Shown piece by piece: positions 6,431 to 37,484 of a stretch of 37,484 bases of DNA. This DNA comes from a virus: IMG/VR virus record IMGVR_UViG_3300028802_000044, positions 1 to 37,484 of that record, one strand, 5' to 3'. The notes under the pieces are model-generated. The model ran no database searches. It had not been told where the DNA came from and saw only the letters and a program-made list of their open reading frames with translations. Numbering within the stretch: the stretch's first letter is position 1; every line of letters begins with the position of its first letter. The position numbers and the translations under genes are program-made.

Positions 6431-6679
6431 ATGAAGTACAGCTCATTCTCAGGCATCGTGGCCTGGTCGCAGGGCGAAATCTTGCTCCAGCATGGCCAGG
6501 CAGCTGACGATGACCATCCCCTGGTTCAGGAGCGACCCGACCTGTTCAGGGGGTTGGCTCCTCGGGCCGACCTGTCCACCTCGCCCACCCCCGACCCAGT
6601 GGAGCACGTGGAGCGGGCAACCCGCGCGCCGGGTGAGACCCGTCCGACGCGCATCCCGAGGGCTGGTTCGGCTCAGTGA
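6431..6679 (+). CDS. Small protein of unknown function after the capsid gene
   Basis: An 82-residue protein. The N-terminal half (MKYSSFSGIVAWSQGEILLQ, then HPLVQERPDLF) resembles short proteins often found beside actinophage capsid genes, where a short hydrophobic start is followed by DHPLVxERPDLF-like sequence; the C-terminal half is Pro/Arg-rich and probably disordered. Start ATG 6431 is preceded by GGGAGGG. Its stop overlaps the GTG start of the glycosyltransferase gene (GTGA). Role unknown; it may be a minor head component. Confidence 0.55.
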   Translation: MKYSSFSGIVAWSQGEILLQHGQAADDDHPLVQERPDLFRGLAPRADLSTSPTPDPVEHVERATRAPGETRPTRIPRAGSAQ

Positions 6680-7662
6680 CGGGAGTGGCTCCGGTGGACG
6701 AGACGGCTGCCACCCCCACCGATATACCGGCGGATACCAGCGAGGTCGCGGGAGAAGCTCCCGGAGGCCAGGACGGGGCGCCCTCGGACGAGAGCGTGCA
6801 GGTAGCGTACCTGCACTCCAGCCGAGTTTCCCATTCCTGGCACCAGAGCATGATGAACCTGATCGGCTGGGACAAGTCGGTCGGGCTGAACGTCATCCGC
6901 TCGATGCCGTATGGCGTGTCCTGCTCGGGGCCGAACAGCCTCGTCGAAGGCCGCAATATGGCGGTAACCCACTTCCTGGACAAGACGGACGCCGGTTGGC
7001 TGTTCTTCGTGGACACGGACATGGGTTTCCGTCCTGATGCGATGGAACAGCTCCTGCTCGCTGCCGATCCGGTGGAACGACCGGTCGTCGGTGGGCTGTG
7101 CTTCGCCATGAAGCACATCGGGCCGGATGGTCAGGGTGGGCAGAAGGTGCTTCCCATCCCGACTCTGTTCATGCTGGCGAAGAATCCGGGGCAAGGCATT
7201 GGGTTCGCCAACCGGTTCATCTACCCGCCGGATTCGATGGTTCAGGTCGCAGGAACCGGGGCAGCGTTCATCCTCATTCACCGGTCGGTCCTGGAGAAAC
7301 TGAGGGACTTGCACGGGGACGTCTGGTTCAACTTCGTGCAGTATGGGGACGGAGCGCAGGTCAGCGAGGACCTGTCGTTCTGCTGGCGGGTCGTGCAAGC
7401 TGGCATGCCGATCTTCGTTCACACGGGAGTCAAGGTCACTCACCACAAGGAGCTGTGGCTCGGTGAGGAAGACTACCGGATGCCGGACCGCGAGCCGATG
7501 CAGAAGATGATGGACGCGGTGACCGAGGATGTCGACGCGGCAGCGAAACAAATGGGCATGGCGCTGGTCGACCGCACCGACTGCCCCCCCGATGTCGATC
7601 CGGCCAAATGGGCGTTGTTCAACCGCCAGCAGCGCCGGGAGTGGGGGAAGCGTCGTGCTTAA
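6676..7662 (+). CDS. Glycosyltransferase, GT-A fold (family 2-like)
   Basis: A 328-residue protein with an acidic, Thr/Ala-rich leader of about 40 residues, then a GT-A domain. The nucleotide-sugar/metal motif is visible as WLFFVDTDMGF (DTD), preceded by SLVEGRNMAVTHFLDKTDAG and followed by PVVGGLCFAMK and VAGTGAAFILIHRSVLEKL, with ED in QVSEDLSFCWRV as the likely catalytic acidic pair. It would transfer a sugar, most likely to a virion protein given its place between capsid and connector genes. GTG start overlaps the previous stop; the gene overlaps the next methyltransferase start by 8 bases. First gene of a three-gene modification cassette. Confidence 0.82.
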   Translation: MTGVAPVDETAATPTDIPADTSEVAGEAPGGQDGAPSDESVQVAYLHSSRVSHSWHQSMMNLIGWDKSVGLNVIRSMPYGVSCSGPNSLVEGRNMAVTHFLDKTDAGWLFFVDTDMGFRPDAMEQLLLAADPVERPVVGGLCFAMKHIGPDGQGGQKVLPIPTLFMLAKNPGQGIGFANRFIYPPDSMVQVAGTGAAFILIHRSVLEKLRDLHGDVWFNFVQYGDGAQVSEDLSFCWRVVQAGMPIFVHTGVKVTHHKELWLGEEDYRMPDREPMQKMMDAVTEDVDAAAKQMGMALVDRTDCPPDVDPAKWALFNRQQRREWGKRRA

Positions 7663-8356
7663 TCCGCTGGAAAGCTGGGATCTCGGCAAGACCTGGAACA
7701 CCTTCCCGAGTGGGACCTTCCACGGGCAGGTGATGGGGGTCGAGATCCAGAAGTCGGATGACGACCTCGAACGATACCGGGAGCTGGTCGAGATCAGCCA
7801 ACCGGACATTGTGATCGAGACGGGGACCCGAGCCGGGGGGTCAGCCCTCTGGTTTCACAAGGAGCTTGGCCTCCAGGTGATCACGATCGATCTCGCGCCG
7901 CAGTGGGGATCGAACGGCCCACCTTGGATCGAATCGTGGGGAGCCAATGGGGGTCCGGGTGCCTCGCCCATCCACTCGATCTCGGGGCGCAGCTCGATTC
8001 GAGAAGAGCTGACCCATGAGGTCAAGCCTTTCATCGAGGGCAAGCGGGTCATGGTCAGTCTTGACTCGGACCACCACTCGTCCCATGTGCAGGCCGAGAT
8101 GGCGACGTGGGGGCCGCTCGTGTCGCCCGGATGCTACATGGTGGTCGAGGACGCGTGCTTCGACGCCTTCCACGAGTTCGGGCAGTCGGACTGGGCTCGG
8201 CTCGGTGGGCACAAGATCCCCGAGATCGGTGGACCGCTAGATGCGCTCCGCAAGAGCGGAATCGAGCACTCGTCGGTGTTCTGGCGAGATGAAGTCCTCG
8301 AGAGTTTGACCGACATCTCGCATTCGCCCTGCGGCTGGTGGAGGAAGCATGAATGA
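7655..8356 (+). CDS. CmcI-like SAM-dependent methyltransferase
   Basis: A 233-residue protein resembling the cephalosporin hydroxylase CmcI / rhamnosyl O-methyltransferase family. The SAM-binding region is IVIETGTRAGGSALWF (about residues 52-67), followed by VITIDLAP; a second block, VMVSLDSDHHSSHVQAEM, and the PGCYMVVEDACFD stretch match the family's metal/SAM-site pattern. It may methylate the sugar added by the flanking glycosyltransferases. I chose the GTG at 7655, which has GGGGGAAG before it and overlaps the upstream stop; the frame remains open farther upstream but that region is the glycosyltransferase gene. It overlaps the next gene by 8 bases. Confidence 0.78.
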   Translation: MLNPLESWDLGKTWNTFPSGTFHGQVMGVEIQKSDDDLERYRELVEISQPDIVIETGTRAGGSALWFHKELGLQVITIDLAPQWGSNGPPWIESWGANGGPGASPIHSISGRSSIREELTHEVKPFIEGKRVMVSLDSDHHSSHVQAEMATWGPLVSPGCYMVVEDACFDAFHEFGQSDWARLGGHKIPEIGGPLDALRKSGIEHSSVFWRDEVLESLTDISHSPCGWWRKHE

Positions 8357-9050
8357 GCTTGCGGTGATAGTGCCGACCCGCAGTCGGCCGCAGAACGTTG
8401 CCCCGATCCTCACTGCATGGGCTCAAACATCCGCCTGGTCGGTCGCTGACCTGTGGTGGGTCGTCGATGCCGACGATGCGGAGCTTCCGGCCTATCACAA
8501 AGTCCTCGATCAGTTCGCAGGTCCATTCCGTCTGCACATCATCCCGGAGTGGAGACCACTCGTTCCGAAGCTGAACGCCAGCGCAATCGGGCTGCGCAGG
8601 GAGTTCGGATACAAGAACCTGGCCTTCATGGGTGACGATCACATCCCGCGTACGCCGATGTGGGCTCACACCCTCGTGTCGTTCCATTCGCGTCGGCCCG
8701 GCTACATTTACTACGGTCGAGACGGGATCCAGGACCAGCGGTTGCCGACTTGGTGGTCGATGGATGGTCGGATCATCGACGCGCTGGGGCGGATGGTTCC
8801 GGCTCCCGTGCAACATCTATACTGTGACAATGCTGTCAAGGCTCTCGGCGAGAAGACCGGGCGCCTTGGCTTTCTGCCCGATGTCCTGGTCGAGCACATG
8901 CATCCGGTTGCAGGCAAAGCCGAAATGGATGCGCAGTACGAGCGGGTCAATCGGAGGCAGCAGTACGACCGGGATCGGGCTGCGTTCGATAGCTGGGTGG
9001 CGTCTGGGTTAGACCAGGATGCTACTCTCCTGGCAGACATCTGGGGGTGA
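8349..9050 (+). CDS. Second glycosyltransferase-like protein (GT-A)
   Basis: A 233-residue protein starting MNELAVIVPTRSRPQNV, the typical first strand and loop of a GT2-type nucleotide-diphospho-sugar fold, followed by LWWVVDADDAEL and NLAFMGDDHIPRTP; the GDDH element is a plausible metal-binding DxD. The later FLPDVLVEHMHPVAGKAEMD stretch gives the conserved late His. It overlaps the methyltransferase gene and completes the modification cassette. Substrate unknown. A virion-protein target is inferred from position; a DNA-base target is less likely because no hydroxymethyl-base pathway is visible here. Confidence 0.75.
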   Translation: MNELAVIVPTRSRPQNVAPILTAWAQTSAWSVADLWWVVDADDAELPAYHKVLDQFAGPFRLHIIPEWRPLVPKLNASAIGLRREFGYKNLAFMGDDHIPRTPMWAHTLVSFHSRRPGYIYYGRDGIQDQRLPTWWSMDGRIIDALGRMVPAPVQHLYCDNAVKALGEKTGRLGFLPDVLVEHMHPVAGKAEMDAQYERVNRRQQYDRDRAAFDSWVASGLDQDATLLADIWG

Positions 9051-26758: not shown

Positions 26759-27091
26759 TCACGTCGGCTCCCCCTCGACGAACACACCCTCTTCATTCAA
26801 GACGAGACCCGTGACCAGCAGAGTTCGCCCGACGAGCTGCAGCAGGTCCGCCGTCGGGTTCTCGATCGTGATCCGGACCTCGTGCCCCACGATGTCCGGG
26901 TTCACGCGGCAGAGCAGCGTTATTGTGCGCTTGTCGATCCGGGGGGTGATGAACGGGTCGGCAGGCTCACGCCGGGGCAATTTGCCGGGACCGATCGTCC
27001 AGTAGGGGCATTCGGGCGTGTGGTCGGTCTTGATGGTTTGTTCCTGGCCGCAGAACGAGCAGACCGCGCGCTTATTGACCGGAACTCCCAT
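26759..27091 (-). CDS. Small protein with N-terminal zinc-finger-like motif
   Basis: A 110-residue protein. The N-terminus has CSFCGQEQTIKTDHTPECPYW, a C-x2-C ... H ... C zinc-finger-like pattern common in actinophage small proteins; the rest is beta-rich (DKRTITLLCRVNPDIVGHEV). The start at 27091 has GGAGAG upstream and overlaps the dUTPase-fusion stop by 20 bases. Last gene of the leftward nucleotide operon. Function unknown. Confidence 0.65.
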   Translation of the reverse strand: MGVPVNKRAVCSFCGQEQTIKTDHTPECPYWTIGPGKLPRREPADPFITPRIDKRTITLLCRVNPDIVGHEVRITIENPTADLLQLVGRTLLVTGLVLNEEGVFVEGEPT

Positions 27092-27986
27092 AGCCGTTCT
27101 CTCCTCGCTCGTGTGCGGGCAGCTCGTCGACCTCGGTCACATCGCCCATGAACGCGGGCAGCAGCACATATTGCGCCAACCTCGTACCGGGCATGACTGC
27201 CCAGCGTGCGCTGCCTCGATTGTGTACCCCAACCATCAACTCCCCCCGATAACCGGAGTCGATGATCGCCGTTCGGATGTCGAATCGCCAATTGGTCCAG
27301 GCGGAAGAGCGACCGGTCATGAAACCGAAGAAGCCATCGGGTACCGCTGCTTTGACCCCCGTGGGCAGCAGCTTATACTCGCCCGGGTGGATCTCGTGTT
27401 CACCAACAATGGCGAGATCGAGACCTGCGTCTCCACGATAAGCACGAGTCGGGACCTTGGCGTTAGTGCTGGTTCGGCTGACCTGCAGGGCCGGATGGCC
27501 CATCGTGTCGATGATCGAGTCGGTTGTCAGGCGAGTTGGATCAGGCAGCGAACCAAGCGCGTCTGCCAGGTTCGGATTGAACAGTCTGCCCTCGGGTGAC
27601 ATGAGCAGGGTCGCCGCTCCACGGGTCGCCCAGTTGGCGATCTGGACCGAGGAGGCTCGCATTGCCTCAGTGGTCACAATACACGTCGGGCGGTTGAGCA
27701 TGAGCGCTTCTTCGATCTCGCTCGGTGTGCCCAGCGTCGGCACCCCCGGGGGCAGGATGGCGAGCAGCCCGTGTGCCTCGAACAGCGCACCCCGGTTGAT
27801 TCGGTCCAGTGCCTCAATGTCATCCCGGTTCCAGGGCGGGGCGGGGAGGCTGAACGTCGTGGGGCGGTAGAAGGTGTGCCCCTGCTGGCGTCCAGCCTCC
27901 AGCAGGTCGGCAAGGACTGAGATCAGGGGGGAGCGGCTGGTGCTCCTACCCGCCTGGTCGATCGGGTGGCCAAGATAGATGAGCAT
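27072..27986 (-). CDS. dut: Fusion: nucleoside deoxyribosyltransferase-like domain plus dUTPase
   Basis: A 304-residue two-domain enzyme. Residues 1-150 resemble the nucleoside 2-deoxyribosyltransferase fold: MLIYLGHPID, a central ALFEAHGLLAILPPG, and GTPSEIEEAL with E90 as candidate catalytic Glu. Residues 170-304 are a trimeric-type dUTPase with all five motifs: GDAGLDL (185-191), GRSS (225-228), IIDSGYRGEL (241-250), GTRLAQ (267-272) and RGENGYGSSG (294-303). The dUTPase would clear dUTP; the first domain may bind or exchange deoxynucleosides. The ATG at 27986 has AAGGAG upstream; the longer frame start lies in another gene. Belongs to the purZ operon. Confidence 0.82.
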   Translation of the reverse strand: MLIYLGHPIDQAGRSTSRSPLISVLADLLEAGRQQGHTFYRPTTFSLPAPPWNRDDIEALDRINRGALFEAHGLLAILPPGVPTLGTPSEIEEALMLNRPTCIVTTEAMRASSVQIANWATRGAATLLMSPEGRLFNPNLADALGSLPDPTRLTTDSIIDTMGHPALQVSRTSTNAKVPTRAYRGDAGLDLAIVGEHEIHPGEYKLLPTGVKAAVPDGFFGFMTGRSSAWTNWRFDIRTAIIDSGYRGELMVGVHNRGSARWAVMPGTRLAQYVLLPAFMGDVTEVDELPAHERGENGYGSSGQ

Positions 27987-28042: not shown

Positions 28043-28390
28043 TCAGATGTTGTCGCGTACGATCGTGTGGGGCAAGCTGTCCATCGGCTGCGGAGAGCCG
28101 AAGTGGAGATCGAGGAAGCCATACAGCTCCGAGCCCCAGCCCTCCTTGATCTGGAAGTCGACGTGGTCGCGCCATTCTCGGCCGACCATCGTGCGGACCC
28201 GGATCGTCTTGCAGCCGTAGCCCATGCTCACGCCGAACTGCGTCTTCGGGAGGATCAGCTCCTCGGGCCGACCGGGCACCGAGGCCAGTTTGTATCGAGC
28301 TGTGATCCTGGCCTTCATGAGCGCGAACTGGCGTTGGGCAGGTGAGCCCTTGCCGGGGCGGACAATCAGCGTGACCTCTTTACTCGCCAT
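28043..28390 (-). CDS. Unknown protein in the nucleotide operon
   Basis: A 115-residue protein, MASKEVTLIVRPGKGSPAQR, then FALMKARITARYKLASVPG and a beta-rich C-terminus with GSELYGFLDLHFGSPQ. It overlaps the preceding gene's stop by 11 bases, so it is translated with it. I do not recognise a family. Confidence 0.6.
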   Translation of the reverse strand: MASKEVTLIVRPGKGSPAQRQFALMKARITARYKLASVPGRPEELILPKTQFGVSMGYGCKTIRVRTMVGREWRDHVDFQIKEGWGSELYGFLDLHFGSPQPMDSLPHTIVRDNI

Positions 28391-29132
28391 CAGTGGACAG
28401 CTCCTCTCCTGGCCAGCTACCGGCCTGCCGGATGCGCTGGATCATCTTGACGTAGATCCCGATGTCCTTGATCGTGTCGTCTGACGGGAATTCGGACCTG
28501 TCGATGGCCGAGGTCGCCCGAGCCATCTTGCCGATGAGATAGAACCAGCAGCCCAGCTCGGCTGCCTCCGCATTGGTGGTGTCCCGATGCATCCACTTGC
28601 CGAGCTGGGTGCCGATGTCGATGAGGTCGGTCGCCCCGTACTCGATGGCCTTGGGGACTGTGGCCTCGATCTCCTCCTCGGAGACCGCACGCCACCACTC
28701 GTCCAGGGGGAAGGGAGCGGAGGCTGTAGCTTCCTGCTCGTCTATCCGGGCGCTGCGCGTGTTTAGAAGGCCGAACGGAGTACGGTACATCCAGGAGAAG
28801 TCGGGGGTGCGATCCCGAAACAGGTGCGTCTCGTCGAAGATGACCTTGGATGCTGCGGCTCCCTGGATTCCCTTGCCGAGCAGCTTATCGATGTACTGTG
28901 CCCCGGTGTGGCCTAGGGGGATGAATTCGTGTCGTCCGCTGTCGACCCAGATCAACGCGCCCGACTGGTGCACGATGTTCAAGTCTGTCTTGTTGTGCTT
29001 GCGGCCCTTCGTGCATTGGTCGCCATGAACGGGGGCAACGGCTCGGCAGCGCCGGATCGGGCGACCCCGCTTTCCGACTTGCAGCTGCCCACCCTCGACC
29101 AGATACTTTTTCAGTGCTTTCCACTCCGCCAT
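28380..29132 (-). CDS. Possible MazG/MazZ-like pyrophosphohydrolase with an N-terminal Cys/His region
   Basis: A 250-residue protein. The C-terminal 90 residues (KAIEYGATDLIDIGTQLGKW, then NAEAAELGCWFYLIGKMARA and SDDTIKDIGIYVKMIQRIR) form an all-helical domain with acidic positions (E189, E192, D218, D219, D223) compatible with MazG-type nucleotide pyrophosphohydrolases; the EYGATDL/SDDT pattern recurs in actinophage proteins. Near the N-terminus CRAVAPVHGDQC and a following KGRKHN suggest a metal site. The start overlaps the purZ stop (TGATG), which ties the two together: MazZ makes dGMP from dGTP for PurZ in other Z phages. The assignment is inferred, not certain. Confidence 0.5.
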   Translation of the reverse strand: MAEWKALKKYLVEGGQLQVGKRGRPIRRCRAVAPVHGDQCTKGRKHNKTDLNIVHQSGALIWVDSGRHEFIPLGHTGAQYIDKLLGKGIQGAAASKVIFDETHLFRDRTPDFSWMYRTPFGLLNTRSARIDEQEATASAPFPLDEWWRAVSEEEIEATVPKAIEYGATDLIDIGTQLGKWMHRDTTNAEAAELGCWFYLIGKMARATSAIDRSEFPSDDTIKDIGIYVKMIQRIRQAGSWPGEELSTDGE

Positions 29133-30181
29133 CAGAGCGCGACCTCCGTTAGTGTCTGGGGACCGGTGCCCACGTAGGCGATGTCGGTCTCCATCTCGTC
29201 CTGCACTTCCAGGAGCCAGGCTAGGGCCTTCTCGTGGTGTTCGAACCTCTGTAGGTCCGCTTCGCCTGCCGTCTCGGGGAACATCTGGTCTAGCATCGTG
29301 ATGGCGAGCTTGACGTCTGTGTTCCACCCACCGCCCCCGTTGGCGAAGATGGCCTCCCGCAGGAGGTCGGTGTCCCATTCTCCGACCCGGCGGACCTTCT
29401 TGGTTACGGTGGTCAGCTCCTCCGGCAGACCCAGGGCTTCCCACGACGTCTCGCCCTTGAGAGGGCCGGAGTTGCCTGCGACCCGGATCGGGTAGGTTCG
29501 GGCGACCACGATCACCTCGAACGGGCTGACGTCCAGAGACCAGGGCGAGATACCGGCCATCCCGAGGAAATCGAGCGCGCGGCAGTCGGAGGAGGTCACC
29601 TGCGGGTAGTGCTTGGTGTGCAGTCCCAGCCCGTATCCTTGGGTCCCCTCGATCACGACCCAGCCCAGTCCGGTCAGGTCGAGCGGCCCCTCCTCGCCCA
29701 GGAACGGGCTGAAAATCCCGGTTGCCTCCCCTGCCAGGTTCGCTGTCCGATGGATTCGGTCGGCTCGTGCGGCTCCGATCCCCTTGCCTGTCGAGCCGAT
29801 CCGGCCGACGATCCCGGATTCGGCTTCGAAGCGGGTGTGTCGACCTTCCAGTAGGGTCGCCGAGGGGTGAATTGTAAGCCGTTGGCTCGCCTTGTGTCCT
29901 GCCCTGTCCAGTTCGTCCAGCTCGGCCCATAGCACCCCGGCGTCGATCTCGGACCCTGCGGCGATGTGGAGTTGGCAGACCGAGTTGGTCACGGCAGCGA
30001 CAGGCACAGCACGCAGCTTCCACTCCCGTCCGCTGTTGTCGTAGGCGGTGTGTCCGGCGTTGGGTCCGGCAACCCGGATGGCCATGTCCCGTTCGCTCAT
30101 GGCTCGGCAGATGAAGCCAGCGACGGCCCCCTTGCCCTCCGATCCGAACTGGCCACCGACGACCGTTGTTACCTGCGTCAC
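29132..30181 (-). CDS. purZ: PurZ: N6-succino-2-amino-deoxyadenylate synthase
   Basis: A 349-residue PurA-fold enzyme. The P-loop reads GGQFGSEGKG, with Ser14 in place of the catalytic Asp of cellular PurA (GDEGKG). Other landmarks: GPNAGHT (40-46), GSTGKGIG, EGTQGYGLGLHTKHYP then TSSD, RTYPIRVAGN, and TTVTKKVRRVGEWD. It is about 80 residues shorter than bacterial PurA. The Asp-to-Ser change is the published mark of PurZ, which joins aspartate to dGMP using a nucleoside triphosphate, the first step to 2-aminoadenine. Start: GTG 30181 behind GGAGGATAC; a TTG at 30214 lacks a ribosome site. First gene of the leftward operon. Confidence 0.92.
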   Translation of the reverse strand: MTQVTTVVGGQFGSEGKGAVAGFICRAMSERDMAIRVAGPNAGHTAYDNSGREWKLRAVPVAAVTNSVCQLHIAAGSEIDAGVLWAELDELDRAGHKASQRLTIHPSATLLEGRHTRFEAESGIVGRIGSTGKGIGAARADRIHRTANLAGEATGIFSPFLGEEGPLDLTGLGWVVIEGTQGYGLGLHTKHYPQVTSSDCRALDFLGMAGISPWSLDVSPFEVIVVARTYPIRVAGNSGPLKGETSWEALGLPEELTTVTKKVRRVGEWDTDLLREAIFANGGGGWNTDVKLAITMLDQMFPETAGEADLQRFEHHEKALAWLLEVQDEMETDIAYVGTGPQTLTEVAL

Positions 30182-30230: not shown

Positions 30231-30260
30231 ATCGTACCCTGGGGCTTGCCCGGGTGTCAA
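30231..30260 (-). promoter_or_regulatory. Promoter for the purZ operon
   Basis: On the minus strand TTGACA (30260-30255), an 18-base spacer and TACGAT (30236-30231) give a consensus -35 and good -10. Transcription would start near 30224, leaving a leader of about 43 bases to the GTG at 30181. Confidence 0.8.
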
Positions 30261-30265: not shown

Positions 30266-30282
30266 ATGCTATCCTACTGCCA
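30246..30282 (+). promoter_or_regulatory. purB promoter, apparently leaderless
   Basis: TTGCCC (30246-30251), an 18-base spacer and TATCCT (30270-30275) end 6 bases before the ATG at 30282. Expected transcription start falls on the A of the ATG. No ribosome binding site precedes the ATG, in agreement with a leaderless mRNA, which Actinobacteria translate well. Confidence 0.6.
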
Positions 30283-31496
30283 TGGACACACGATACTCCC
30301 ACCCCGAGGTTACCGTGCTGTGGTCGCTACCGTCGACCTACGCCCAGTGGCTGCACATCGAATCCACCGTTCTGTTCCACCAACTCAAACAGGGAATCGT
30401 GCCGGAGGGCAGCCCCCGCGCACTCTCAAACGACCTGCGGGGGGTTAGTCAGCCGATCATCGACGAGCGTGCGGTCGACCTGATCGCAGAGATCGAGCAG
30501 CGCACCAAACACGACGTGGCCGCGTTCCTGGAATGGCTGCGCGGTGGTGTGAAGCCCGCTGGCCGCTGGCTGCATTTTGGGCTCACCTCGTCTGACATTG
30601 TGGACACCGCACAGGGCATGCGGTTCCGGGACATGCGCATCGTCGTGTTGGAGGCGATGCAGGGCCTGATGTCGGAGCTGACCCGCTGGTGTGAGGATGA
30701 CACGCCCATTCTCGGGTACACGCACGGACAGGTCGCGGAGATGATGACGATGCGTGCCAGGGCCTGGCAATGGGTGACCACCCTGGCCACTCCGGCGGCT
30801 GACCTGTCGCGCCACACGAATCGGGTAGCGGTATGTAAGCTGTCCGGTCCGGTCGGCACCTACCAGCACAACCCACCGGAGGTCGAGGAGGCGGTAGCCA
30901 GGGACTTGGACCTGAGGCCACACGGACCCGGTGCCAGCCAAATCGCCTCCCGGGCACCGCTCGCTGCCTGGGCGAACTCCGCTGCACTGCTGGTCGGGGC
31001 GTGCGCCAAGATCGCGATGGACGTGCGACTCATGCACCTCAACAAGGAGGCGATCGTCCAGCAGACCGATGGTCAGATCGGATCGTCTGCCATGGCACAC
31101 AAGCGCAATCCGATCGGGGCGGAGCAGCTCGGTGGAATGGCCAGGCTCGCACGCGGGTACGCGTCGATGTTGCAGCCGCTGGACGTCTGGTTGGAGCGGG
31201 ATATCTCGCATTCCAGTGTCGAGCGGGTTGCTGTGCCGGACTTATGGCATGTGGTGATGCACTCGATCGAGCTGACCACGACCCTGCTGCGGGGGCTGAC
31301 CCTCAACGAGTGGAAGATCAACATGGGAATCCCGCAGGCGGGGGTGGATCCGTTGGTTGCCGGGTTAACCCTCCAGGCAATTTCTGATGGAATGGGCTGG
31401 GAGGAGGCTCGGCGCTGGGCGACCGAACGGCAACTCAAGGCCACCCCGGAGCAAGGGCATATCGCGATGCGCAACTATCCAGGCAGCTCCCGGTGA
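30282..31496 (+). CDS. purB: Adenylosuccinate lyase (PurB), phage-encoded
   Basis: A 404-residue fumarase/aspartase-superfamily lyase. Conserved regions: LHFGLTSSDIVDTA (97-110), GYTHGQ with the catalytic His at 148, the signature GSSAMAHKRNP (267-277) with the mobile-loop serine, and LERDISHSSVERVAVPD. All expected catalytic residues are present, so it should be active. In Z phages the PurZ product, succino-diaminopurine deoxynucleotide, must lose fumarate by PurB; usually host PurB is thought to do this. Start ATG 30282; no ribosome site. The stop overlaps the next gene's GTG. Confidence 0.93.
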   Translation: MDTRYSHPEVTVLWSLPSTYAQWLHIESTVLFHQLKQGIVPEGSPRALSNDLRGVSQPIIDERAVDLIAEIEQRTKHDVAAFLEWLRGGVKPAGRWLHFGLTSSDIVDTAQGMRFRDMRIVVLEAMQGLMSELTRWCEDDTPILGYTHGQVAEMMTMRARAWQWVTTLATPAADLSRHTNRVAVCKLSGPVGTYQHNPPEVEEAVARDLDLRPHGPGASQIASRAPLAAWANSAALLVGACAKIAMDVRLMHLNKEAIVQQTDGQIGSSAMAHKRNPIGAEQLGGMARLARGYASMLQPLDVWLERDISHSSVERVAVPDLWHVVMHSIELTTTLLRGLTLNEWKINMGIPQAGVDPLVAGLTLQAISDGMGWEEARRWATERQLKATPEQGHIAMRNYPGSSR

Positions 31497-31726
31497 ACCA
31501 GGCGGAACTAGCCGCACAGCTCGACGTCTCCGAGTCGACGGTTAGCCGGATCTGCTCGGCAGAGCGGCGACCCAGCGTTGAGCTGATGCTCGATATCCGA
31601 CGGGTGTTGCGGTGGTCGCTGGAGTCCCAAGCCGACGCGCTGCGGGAGTCGCAGAGCCGATATTCGGTTGAGTTCAAGCAGCGCATGGAGCGACGGAGGG
31701 TACCACGTGAGCGTTCCCGATCTTGA
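31493..31726 (+). CDS. Helix-turn-helix DNA-binding protein
   Basis: A 77-residue XRE/Cro-type protein. Residues 2-40 form the HTH domain: QAELAAQLDVSESTVSRIC then RRPSVELMLDIRRVL. The C-terminus is basic and helical. It starts with GTG overlapping the purB stop (GTGA), so it is made with PurB. Being small and next to the divergent purZ/purB control region, it is a candidate repressor of the GGGC-AA-GCCC type palindromes found there and at 35935. Confidence 0.8.
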   Translation: MNQAELAAQLDVSESTVSRICSAERRPSVELMLDIRRVLRWSLESQADALRESQSRYSVEFKQRMERRRVPRERSRS

Positions 31727-31928
31727 GTTTCGTCCGTGTGGGGCATGTGCTGAACTGGTCCCCGCCGACACCGGATGCCAGCACTGGAAACCGGGCATCA
31801 AATCGGGGAAACGGATGGGCTGGGTTAGAGGGCGAGCACGAACCACCCCGATTCCGGCTGCCTCGCCTGCTGCCGACCTCTCGTTCATACGTGTGCTTGA
31901 CAGGGGGGCAACCGGCACGATACAATAG
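31707..31928 (+). CDS. Small protein with zinc-ribbon-like motif
   Basis: A 73-residue protein from GTG 31707 (ribosome site CGGAGGG). CGACAELVPADTGCQHW gives C-x2-C ... C-x-H, a plausible zinc site; the rest is basic and low complexity. Its last codons run into the helicase promoter, which is unusual, so the end could be non-functional. Confidence 0.5.
   Translation: MSVPDLEFRPCGACAELVPADTGCQHWKPGIKSGKRMGWVRGRARTTPIPAASPAADLSFIRVLDRGATGTIQ
31897..31926 (+). promoter_or_regulatory. Strong promoter for the helicase gene
   Basis: TTGACA (31897-31902), spacer of 18 bases and TACAAT (31921-31926) give a near-consensus sigma-70/SigA promoter. The spacer begins GGGGGGCAACCGG, similar to but less symmetric than the GGGGCAAGCCCC of the 35927 promoter. 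Leader about 30 bases, with GAAGGAG before ATG 31963. Confidence 0.8.
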
Positions 31929-31962
31929 CATCTGGCCCTCTTCCCACCCTGAAGGAGACGCA

Positions 31963-33447
31963 ATGGCACTCACGGCACCCGGTCAGGTGAAAATGGCCTC
32001 CAGCTTCGCTCCGACCGGAGAGCAGGTTGCGATCATGACCGCTTTCAATGAAGGCGATCTGGTGGTGGCTGAGGCCCTGGCCGGAACCGGCAAGACCACC
32101 ACCCTGAAGGCGATCTCGGGCATCCAGCCGATGCGACCCGGCACATACCTGGCCTTCAACAAAAGCATCGTGCGGGGGGCGGAGGGCACCTTCCCGGGCC
32201 GAGTCAACGTCACTACTGCCCATGCGCTGGCATACAAGGCGATCGGTCACACCTTCGGCCACCGACTCCCAGGCAACCCGGGGGCGACTCGGATGTCGGC
32301 TAAGCGGATGGCCACCTTCATGAAGGTCAAAGCAGCCCAGCTCGATTCGGGCACGCTAAACCCGGTTGTGGTGACCAGGATGGCGCAGGCCACTGTGGCG
32401 AACTACATCAAGAGCCCAGATGTCGAGCTGGGGCCGAAGCACATCCCGGGTCGGGTGTTGCAGCACCACGACCCGATCTCGGTGGCATCGGTCGTCTTGC
32501 CGGTAGCTCGTCGGATCTGGGCCGACCTCAGCAGCACCAACGGCAAGTTCTTCTTCACGCACGACGTCTACCTCAAGCACTGGGCATTGAGCAACCCTGT
32601 CATCAACTCGGACTACATCATGTTCGACGAGGCACAGGATTCCGACCCGGTTATCGCGTCGATCGTGGCCAGGCAGCCCGCACAGCTCGTGTACGTCGGA
32701 GACCGGAACCAGGCGATCTACGGGTGGCGGGGTGCGGTTGACTCGATGAGCCACGTGCAAGGCGCGACACGGCTGCCACTAACCAAATCCTTCCGGTTCG
32801 GTCCGGCCATCGCAGAGGCAGCGAACCAATGGCTGGACCTGCTCGGTTCTGACCTGCGTGTGGTCGGCCACGATCCGGTGAAGTCGGTGGTGGGTGAGCT
32901 GACCGGCGCGCCACGAGCCATCCTGTGTCGGACCAACGGAACCGCGCTAGGCTGGGTACTCGCTTTCCAGGCCCGAGGCATCAAGGTGGCCCTCGCCCCG
33001 GGGGACAAAACAGCAGGCAAGGACATCGAGCGCTTCGCCTGGGCAGCTCGGGATCTGATGAACGGCGAGGGCACTGACCACCCCGATCTCGTGGGCTTCA
33101 CGACATGGAACGAGGTCGTGCAGTATGCCGAGGAGGAGGAGGATGGGGCCGACCTCAAGCGGTTGGTCGGGATCATCAACCGGATCGGTTACCCGGCAGT
33201 GATCGATGCGATCCGGGGGCTGTCGCTGGAACGCGATGCGCAGGTCACGGTGTCGACTGCCCACAAGGCCAAGGGCCTGGAGTGGGGTGCGGTTAAGGTG
33301 GCAGACGACTTCGTGCCGCCGGACCGTGAAGCGGATGATGAGCCCGTCGACCCGGCGGACCTGATGCTGGCCTATGTGACAGTCACTCGGGCGAAGCTCC
33401 AGCTCGACCCGGGGCCGCTTGGGGAGCCGCAGCTATGGCGACCCTGA
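31963..33447 (+). CDS. SF1 DNA helicase (UvrD/Rep-like)
   Basis: A 494-residue helicase. Motif I EALAGTGKTTT (37-47), motif Ia region AFNKSIV and TTAHALAYKAIG, motif II FDEAQD (221-226), motif III GDRNQAIYGWRG (246-257), motif IV near SFRFGPAIAEAAN, motif V STAHKAKGLEW, and motif VI AYVTVTRAK. This is the complete set for 3-prime to 5-prime SF1A helicases, in a short version. It probably unwinds phage DNA in replication or recombination, next to the nuclease and PrimPol. Confidence 0.92.
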   Translation: MALTAPGQVKMASSFAPTGEQVAIMTAFNEGDLVVAEALAGTGKTTTLKAISGIQPMRPGTYLAFNKSIVRGAEGTFPGRVNVTTAHALAYKAIGHTFGHRLPGNPGATRMSAKRMATFMKVKAAQLDSGTLNPVVVTRMAQATVANYIKSPDVELGPKHIPGRVLQHHDPISVASVVLPVARRIWADLSSTNGKFFFTHDVYLKHWALSNPVINSDYIMFDEAQDSDPVIASIVARQPAQLVYVGDRNQAIYGWRGAVDSMSHVQGATRLPLTKSFRFGPAIAEAANQWLDLLGSDLRVVGHDPVKSVVGELTGAPRAILCRTNGTALGWVLAFQARGIKVALAPGDKTAGKDIERFAWAARDLMNGEGTDHPDLVGFTTWNEVVQYAEEEEDGADLKRLVGIINRIGYPAVIDAIRGLSLERDAQVTVSTAHKAKGLEWGAVKVADDFVPPDREADDEPVDPADLMLAYVTVTRAKLQLDPGPLGEPQLWRP

Positions 33448-34894: not shown

Positions 34895-35668
34895 ATGGCA
34901 TTGAGCGCACCAGCAGGAGACCACCCCTTCAAACGCGAGATCATTAAGTTCGTCCGTGACTATGACGCCAGTCGCCCACGTTCGATGCAGAAACACCTCG
35001 GGCCGAGCGAGATTGGGGCGCCTTGCATGCGCCAACTCGGCATGAAGTTGGCTGGAGTGGAGCCTTGCAATGAGACGGCAGATCCTTGGTTCCCGATCAT
35101 CGGCACGGCGGTACATGCGTGGCTTGCAACCGCGTTGGACTGGTACCAGTACAACCGGCTCGGCTGCACGCCGGACAACCCTCGTTTCCTCATTGAGAAC
35201 CGTGTCCATGCTGATAGCGAGGGTGGCTACTCGACGTCTGGGTCTACCGACGTGTACGACACGCTACACGATCGTGTTGTTGACTGGAAGATCGTCGGTG
35301 TGACCACGATGCGCAAGGTCGACAAGGGGGGCACACCCGAGGAGAAGGCAGGGCCGCAGTACCACGTGCAAGGCATGACCTATGGCAAGGGGTGGGAGCA
35401 ACGCGGGCTCAAGCCGCGCGAGGTGATGATTTGCTTCCTGCCGAGGTCCAACTTCCTGCACAAGATGAAGATCGTCACCATGAAGTATGACAGGTCGGTG
35501 GCGGATGAGGCTCAATTGAGGCTGGCAGCGATAGACGCGGCACGTCAGTTGGTTCCGCCTCACACGCTTCCGGCTGCGGGCTGCACGATCTGGTGTCCAT
35601 TCTATCGACCTGGTGTGCCGCTCGGTCCGTCGAGCTGCCCTGGTCACGGGGATGCGAAGGATGACTGA
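34895..35668 (+). CDS. Cas4/RecB-like PD-(D/E)XK nuclease with probable Fe-S cluster
   Basis: A 257-residue nuclease. Active-site pattern: TAVHAWL with H74, STDVYD with D119, VVDWK with D130 and K132, then QYHVQGM (Q155, Q159). Four cysteines, C44, C230, C234 and C248, are spaced as in Cas4/AddB nucleases, where one N-terminal and three C-terminal Cys hold a 4Fe-4S cluster. It may resect phage or host DNA in recombination or replication, as Cas4-like phage exonucleases do. No cas1 or CRISPR array is present. ATG 34895 follows GAGAGGACGAG. Confidence 0.85.
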   Translation: MALSAPAGDHPFKREIIKFVRDYDASRPRSMQKHLGPSEIGAPCMRQLGMKLAGVEPCNETADPWFPIIGTAVHAWLATALDWYQYNRLGCTPDNPRFLIENRVHADSEGGYSTSGSTDVYDTLHDRVVDWKIVGVTTMRKVDKGGTPEEKAGPQYHVQGMTYGKGWEQRGLKPREVMICFLPRSNFLHKMKIVTMKYDRSVADEAQLRLAAIDAARQLVPPHTLPAAGCTIWCPFYRPGVPLGPSSCPGHGDAKDD

Positions 35669-36777: not shown

Positions 36778-36813
36778 CCGTCTGCAACAACAACTGGATA
36801 GGACGAGGTGAGC

Positions 36814-37484
36814 ATGATCGATCTGAACGAGTTGGCCGATCTGCCAACGGACCCGCTTGAACTGGCGCTGTTCTGGGCCGACCGGGGGCTCCCCGTCCTC
36901 CCCTGCAACCCAGACACTAAGGCTCCGTGGGTCGGCAAGAAGTGGGAGCAACAGGCCACCACCGACCAGGTGACGATTCACGCCTGGTGGTACCACAAGC
37001 CAACAGCGCGGGTCGGGATCAAGACTGGACTGGCCTGTGGGTGCGGCTGCCTGGACGGCCCCGATGTCCTGGACTTCGACGTCAGTGATGGGAAGCCCGG
37101 GATCGAACAACGTCGGATCCTGGTGGACGCGGGCATTTTGGACGGCACCAAGACGCTGCGGTTGGGGACACCCAGCGGGGGCGAGCACTGGTGGTTCCAG
37201 GGCACCTCCCAGCACAACAAGCAGAACGACGATTCGGTGTGGGGTGTGGACCTGCGCGCTCATCACGGGATGGTGCTAGCCCCCGGCAACCCGGGATACG
37301 AGGTTAAGTCGGTCCCATGGGATGAACTCGGCAAGATAGACTGGGACGCCATTCGGCTGTGCCTAGGAATACTGGTCAAGCCGGGAGGGGGGGACAAACC
37401 ACGACTCCCACCGACCCGCCCCGTGGGCGGTTCGGTGCCAGCGCCGTCTCGGTCCAAGCTGGTGGCACCCGCCCGGTTCGACAA
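36814..37484 (+). CDS. Primase-polymerase (AEP/PrimPol), N-terminal part, cut by window end
   Basis: 223 residues are visible. The Prim-Pol domain is recognisable: PLELALFWADRGLPVLPCNP (14-33), KAPWVGKKWEQQATTD, VGIKTG (67-72), VLDFDV with catalytic D87 and D89, TPSGGEHWWF (119-128) with H125, and VDLRAHHGMVLAPG with D146. It makes primers and can extend them. The Z-phage S-2L also replicates with a PrimPol, whose specificity for 2-aminoadenine depends partly on a dATPase. Start: ATG 36814, or GTG 36808 two codons earlier; the ribosome site fits both. The rest lies beyond the window. Confidence 0.9.
   Translation, partial: MIDLNELADLPTDPLELALFWADRGLPVLPCNPDTKAPWVGKKWEQQATTDQVTIHAWWYHKPTARVGIKTGLACGCGCLDGPDVLDFDVSDGKPGIEQRRILVDAGILDGTKTLRLGTPSGGEHWWFQGTSQHNKQNDDSVWGVDLRAHHGMVLAPGNPGYEVKSVPWDELGKIDWDAIRLCLGILVKPGGGDKPRLPPTRPVGGSVPAPSRSKLVAPARFD

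Follow-up and report, generated by a model that had tools for sequence, protein, structure and literature searches.

We analysed a 37,484-nucleotide stretch of viral DNA (hereafter the window), which covers the larger part of a tailed phage genome; the full genome would measure about 41 to 42 kb, and its host, judging from its relatives, is probably actinobacterial. The gene content makes it very likely that the phage carries a PurZ0-type pathway leading to 2-aminoadenine (Z) DNA, with a primase-polymerase (PrimPol) probably copying the genome. The first-pass annotation had named the gene at 29132-30181 (minus strand) a PurZ enzyme and the phage a probable Z-DNA phage, and both proposals gain support from a curated family model, a protein tree and the gene neighbourhood. 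Sequence composition cannot reveal Z and forms no part of the evidence.

The purZ open reading frame spans 349 codons from a GTG start, with GGAGG upstream, and its product is predicted to be a succino-2-amino-dAMP synthetase of the PurZ0 type. A sigma-70-like pattern in the divergent purZ/purB gap (TTGACA-18-TACGAT, 30231-30260, minus strand) is a candidate purZ promoter by consensus match only, found once against 0.0 expected in shuffles. The protein scored 333.4 bits with the NCBIfam PurZ model NF038379, above the cut-off of 300, and also matched PHROG 1211 (1.3e-81) and Pfam PF00709 (2.6e-34), matches strong enough to exclude chance. Its best phage matches (41-54% identity) were all PurZ0-type proteins of actinobacteriophages, and solved chain 7VF6, which by alignment is the PurZ0 of phage Archimedes, matched at 1e-84. 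At the DNA level, near-identity to known phages was limited to a 50-base stretch within purZ.

The P-loop of the window protein reads VVGGQFGSEGKGAVAG (core GQFGSEGKG), aligned with GTQWGDEGKG in E. coli PurA, which confirms the GSEGKG motif reported earlier and places Ser at the Asp13 position. Compared with E. coli PurA, the protein is also short by about 83 aa, as the first-pass annotation had noted (about 80 residues), but its use of this length as a mark of PurZ did not hold: archaeal PurA, with solved chains of 339-340 residues, is just as short and aligns over its whole length, so that the short form is a trait of an archaeal-type lineage and is not specific to PurZ. The TMLD motif is kept in the window protein and in archaeal PurA and is missing from the phiVC8 and S-2L enzymes, a hint, read from the alignment, that GTP may serve as donor. 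PurZ0 was reportedly described in 2023 as using GTP. One sentence in PMC12884076 points the other way.

Were the gene a phage copy of ordinary PurA, it would supply AMP precursors from IMP as a metabolic helper, with no base replacement. The fold and length are those of archaeal PurA, and archaeal PurA chains gave matches of about 140 bits. Against this stand the Ser at Asp13, the lower score of the NCBIfam archaeal PurA model (217 bits vs 333 for the PurZ model), the linkage to dutZ, dmtZ and other PurZ0 genes, and a position outside the PurA clade; we thus regard a PurA function as very improbable. That position comes from a maximum-likelihood tree of 88 proteins, comprising the window protein, 34 phage or environmental PurZ0, 6 phage PurZ, 7 Asp-type PurA and 40 chromosomal Ser-type proteins. 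In this tree, which carries out a comparison with PurA and PurZ sets proposed by the first-pass annotation, the window protein fell not inside cellular PurA but within the phage PurZ0 clade (35 rows, support 100/100), together with Archimedes, Wayne and Ghobes. Its neighbours were environmental viral contigs, the nearest at 71% identity; such close relatives were recovered by alignment-based search, single-protein searches giving little. The PurZ proteins of S-2L, phiVC8 and SH-Ab 15497, to which the gene had originally been linked, formed a separate 100/100 clade that does not include the window protein. By sequence, then, the subtype is PurZ0 and not the S-2L/phiVC8 PurZ. Two candidate identities were rejected on the tree: ordinary PurA, Asp13 being replaced as well, and S-2L/phiVC8-type PurZ, the accompanying genes being DutZ and DmtZ and not DatZ/MazZ.

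The Asp-to-Ser change, which had been presented as the PurZ signature, is present in the window protein but is not diagnostic. A genome scan for conserved motifs returned 80 loci, one on a phage-like contig and 79 on bacterial or archaeal chromosomes, and nearly all of the 79 carried Ser in the P-loop; because the scan patterns favour Ser, these 79 loci serve as examples and give no estimate of frequency. These chromosomal genes belong to lineages outside the phage PurZ0 clade, and nine of ten checked genomes carrying one also had a full-length PurA. Since Ser also occurs in non-phage lineages, it is by itself no proof of a Z phage and is unfit for calling Z-DNA; with both the substitution and the short length weaker than claimed, the surroundings of purZ decide the Z reading.

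The window gene could in principle be a member of this chromosomal GSE-type family and not a Z-phage enzyme, given that the Ser change is common to both, that they are roughly 31-43% identical and that a DCD/dUTPase-like protein occurs in GSE operons too. The tree sets the GSE family apart from the phage PurZ0 clade (100/100) that holds the window protein, which leaves this alternative with very little probability. The GSE-type genes themselves (L118-L196, e.g., L148, L163 and L121) lie within a recurring operon. In it the PurZ-like gene is accompanied by an RNase H-like exonuclease, which is fused or adjacent to a small kinase, and by a DCD/dUTPase-like protein whose C-terminal part is long; a deoxynucleoside kinase is sometimes present as well. 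PADLOC matches to this operon were weak, no literature on it was found, and it may be a Z-nucleotide or a defence system of bacteria. The phage-like locus of the scan (L117, CAIOKD010000330.1, labelled as a Verrucomicrobia MAG) carries a phage-type PurZ0, the helical protein described below and dutZ, and from this gene content looks like a Z-phage contig inside a MAG. A 735-kb huge phage (L017, LR756503.1) encodes an Asp-type GDEGKG homologue that grouped with PurA.

Downstream of purZ and on the same strand follow a conserved helical protein, a small open reading frame and a DmtZ-DutZ fusion. The helical protein (28380-29132, minus strand), whose start codon overlaps the purZ stop, has a conserved C-terminal domain of about 110 aa. 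Of 33 PurZ0-module viral records, 32 have this domain, and the one without it is G033, taken as the genome of an Arthrobacter phage isolate; Wayne has a DUF5664 (dATP/dGTP diphosphohydrolase-domain) protein where others have the helical protein. The predicted structure is a confident helical bundle (pLDDT >90 in the core), yet comparison with the PDB, MazG and HisE included, gave no match at E <0.001, and fold matches were weak and confined to viral DUF6378/nucleotide-modification families. Pfam models, the dATP/dGTP diphosphohydrolase model included, did not match the window protein. A MazG-like nucleotide pyrophosphohydrolase is our candidate, and this enzyme class is a guess because the confident model lacks a PDB match. 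The small frame (28043-28390, minus strand) overlaps its neighbour, is part of the same run of genes and had no Pfam, PHROG or NCBIfam match.

The fusion (27072-27986, minus strand) joins an N-terminal deoxyribosyltransferase-like DmtZ to a C-terminal dUTPase-like DutZ (PF00692, 1.8e-22) and aligned over its full length with fusion proteins of Arthrobacter phages at 30-31% identity. The DmtZ active-site residues given in PMC12884076 (Tyr6, Asp12, Pro57, Asn77 and Glu103, Ghobes numbering) are all kept. In assays of the Wayne and Ghobes enzymes, DutZ hydrolysed dATP and dGTP, and DmtZ hydrolysed dAMP or transferred its sugar to Z (PMC12884076). The order purZ, helical protein, dmtZ, dutZ was present in all 18 PurZ0 loci examined.

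On the other side of purZ, a purB-like adenylosuccinate lyase gene (30282-31496, plus strand) is transcribed divergently, with about 100 bp between the two genes. Its product scored 250 bits with TIGR00928, below the equivalog cut-off of 326, and alignments showed conservation of the catalytic His pair, the THG motif and the Ser loop GSSAM-HK. The loop reads SSAMAHK, where most PurBs have SSAMPHK. This Ala for Pro (SSAMAHK or SSSMAHK) is shared by the window protein and most members of its clade (L021-L025). Phage PurBs fell into several groups in a PurB tree, in which the window protein and its six closest relatives formed a phage-only clade (100/100); in all six of these relatives purB is divergent from and adjacent to purZ. 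More broadly, 30 of 46 PurZ0-module viral records had a PurB match, and the cultured phages listed among PurZ as well as PurB matches were six Gordonia and five Streptomyces records. The dSMP-to-dZMP step has been assigned to the host (PMC12884076, PMC12783734), and PMC12884076 nowhere mentions a lyase; our search found no literature on purB in Z phages.

Beyond purB lie genes for a UvrD-like helicase (31723-33447, plus strand; PHROG 1967, 2.1e-84) and a Cas4/RecB-like exonuclease (34895-35668, plus strand; PHROG 1674, 7.4e-50), followed by the start of a PrimPol gene (36802-37484, plus strand) that runs off the contig end. The latter matched PF09250 at 36865-37296 (1.3e-23) and, by tblastn, the primase/polymerase of Wayne. 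No DpoZ-1/PolA-family polymerase was found in the window, which is cut at its right end inside PrimPol and, by comparison with relatives, misses about 4 kb there. According to PMC12884076, a matching DpoZ polymerase is carried by PurZ0 phages and PurZ phages alike. However, all seven closest relatives have PrimPol and lack a PolA-family polymerase. Three of them (40.0, 45.0 and 41.1 kb) start with the same first gene as the window and share their last gene, and therefore look near complete. In these three, which were fully read, the large open reading frames are head, tail, helicase, PurB/PurZ-region and PrimPol genes or opposite-strand open frames, and PrimPol is the only DNA polymerase found. 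As judged from the relatives, replication of Z-DNA in this clade probably does without DpoZ and, by analogy with S-2L, may rely on PrimPol. Among the head genes of the window, two plus-strand genes (6676-7662 and 8349-9050) matched PHROGs annotated as glycosyltransferase and DNA methyltransferase/glycosyltransferase; their products possibly decorate the capsid or the DNA.

The lack of DpoZ in the closest relatives bears on whether adenine is fully replaced. With a PrimPol that does not discriminate, as in S-2L, where it incorporates A and Z alike (PMC8065100), and with incomplete control of the pool, dZTP could be made while adenine is replaced only in part. In S-2L, however, A is fully replaced all the same (PMC8065100) and DatZ removes dATP (PMC8342488), a purpose for which the window phage has DutZ and DmtZ. 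Partial replacement is unlikely, if clearly less so than the ordinary-PurA and GSE-type readings considered above.

In the pathway that we infer, PurZ0 would form succino-2-amino-dAMP from aspartate and dGMP, the phage PurB-like lyase would remove fumarate to yield dZMP, and host kinases would convert dZMP to dZTP. By hydrolysing dATP and dGTP, DutZ would eliminate the competitor and provide dGMP; the helical protein would probably carry out the same hydrolysis, and DmtZ would destroy dAMP or move its sugar to free Z. PrimPol would then copy the genome with Z opposite T. We counted against this pathway the 41-54% identity to named PurZ0 proteins, the PurB score below cut-off together with the SSAMAHK loop, and the contig cut in PrimPol.

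A further-reaching proposal, for which we see roughly even chances, is a self-contained dGMP-to-dZMP route built on the divergent pair of the phage's own PurZ0 and its own sequence-modified PurB, with the helical pool enzyme of almost all PurZ0 phages and a ZTGC-DNA copied by PrimPol alone. This would be the second DpoZ-free means of maintaining a Z genome, put together independently of the first. If confirmed, it would mean that a Z genome can be made with enzymes that the phage itself encodes and a polymerase outside the PolA family. The PurZ0 kind is known from the literature, in which we did not find the gene combination of the window described; what is new here is that a phage purB stands next to purZ in divergent orientation, that the helical protein is nearly universal and that DpoZ is probably lacking.

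Compared with known systems, the window phage is closest to the PurZ0 phages of Gordonia (Archimedes, Ghobes), Arthrobacter (Wayne) and Streptomyces (Hiyaa, Galactica), with which it shares the PurZ0 clade and dutZ and dmtZ adjoining purZ. The helical protein follows purZ in those outside Arthrobacter, and a PurB-like gene is present in the Gordonia and Streptomyces phages, as in the window. However, these named phages encode Pol I, which the closest relatives of the window lack, and their purB lies away from purZ. Microbial PurA has the PF00709 fold and most of the catalytic residues in common with the window enzyme but keeps Asp13 and forms its own clade. Vibrio phage phiVC8 and Acinetobacter phage SH-Ab 15497 share the P-loop Ser and the placement of nucleotide-pool genes beside purZ, whereas their PurZ is of the separate clade, their pool enzymes are of the DatZ/MazZ type and they encode Pol I. 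Cyanophage S-2L differs in having a PurZ of another clade with DatZ and MazZ, no DmtZ-DutZ and no annotated PurB, yet it resembles the window phage in that PrimPol is the apparent sole DNA polymerase and dATP is removed by pool enzymes (PMC8065100, PMC8342488).
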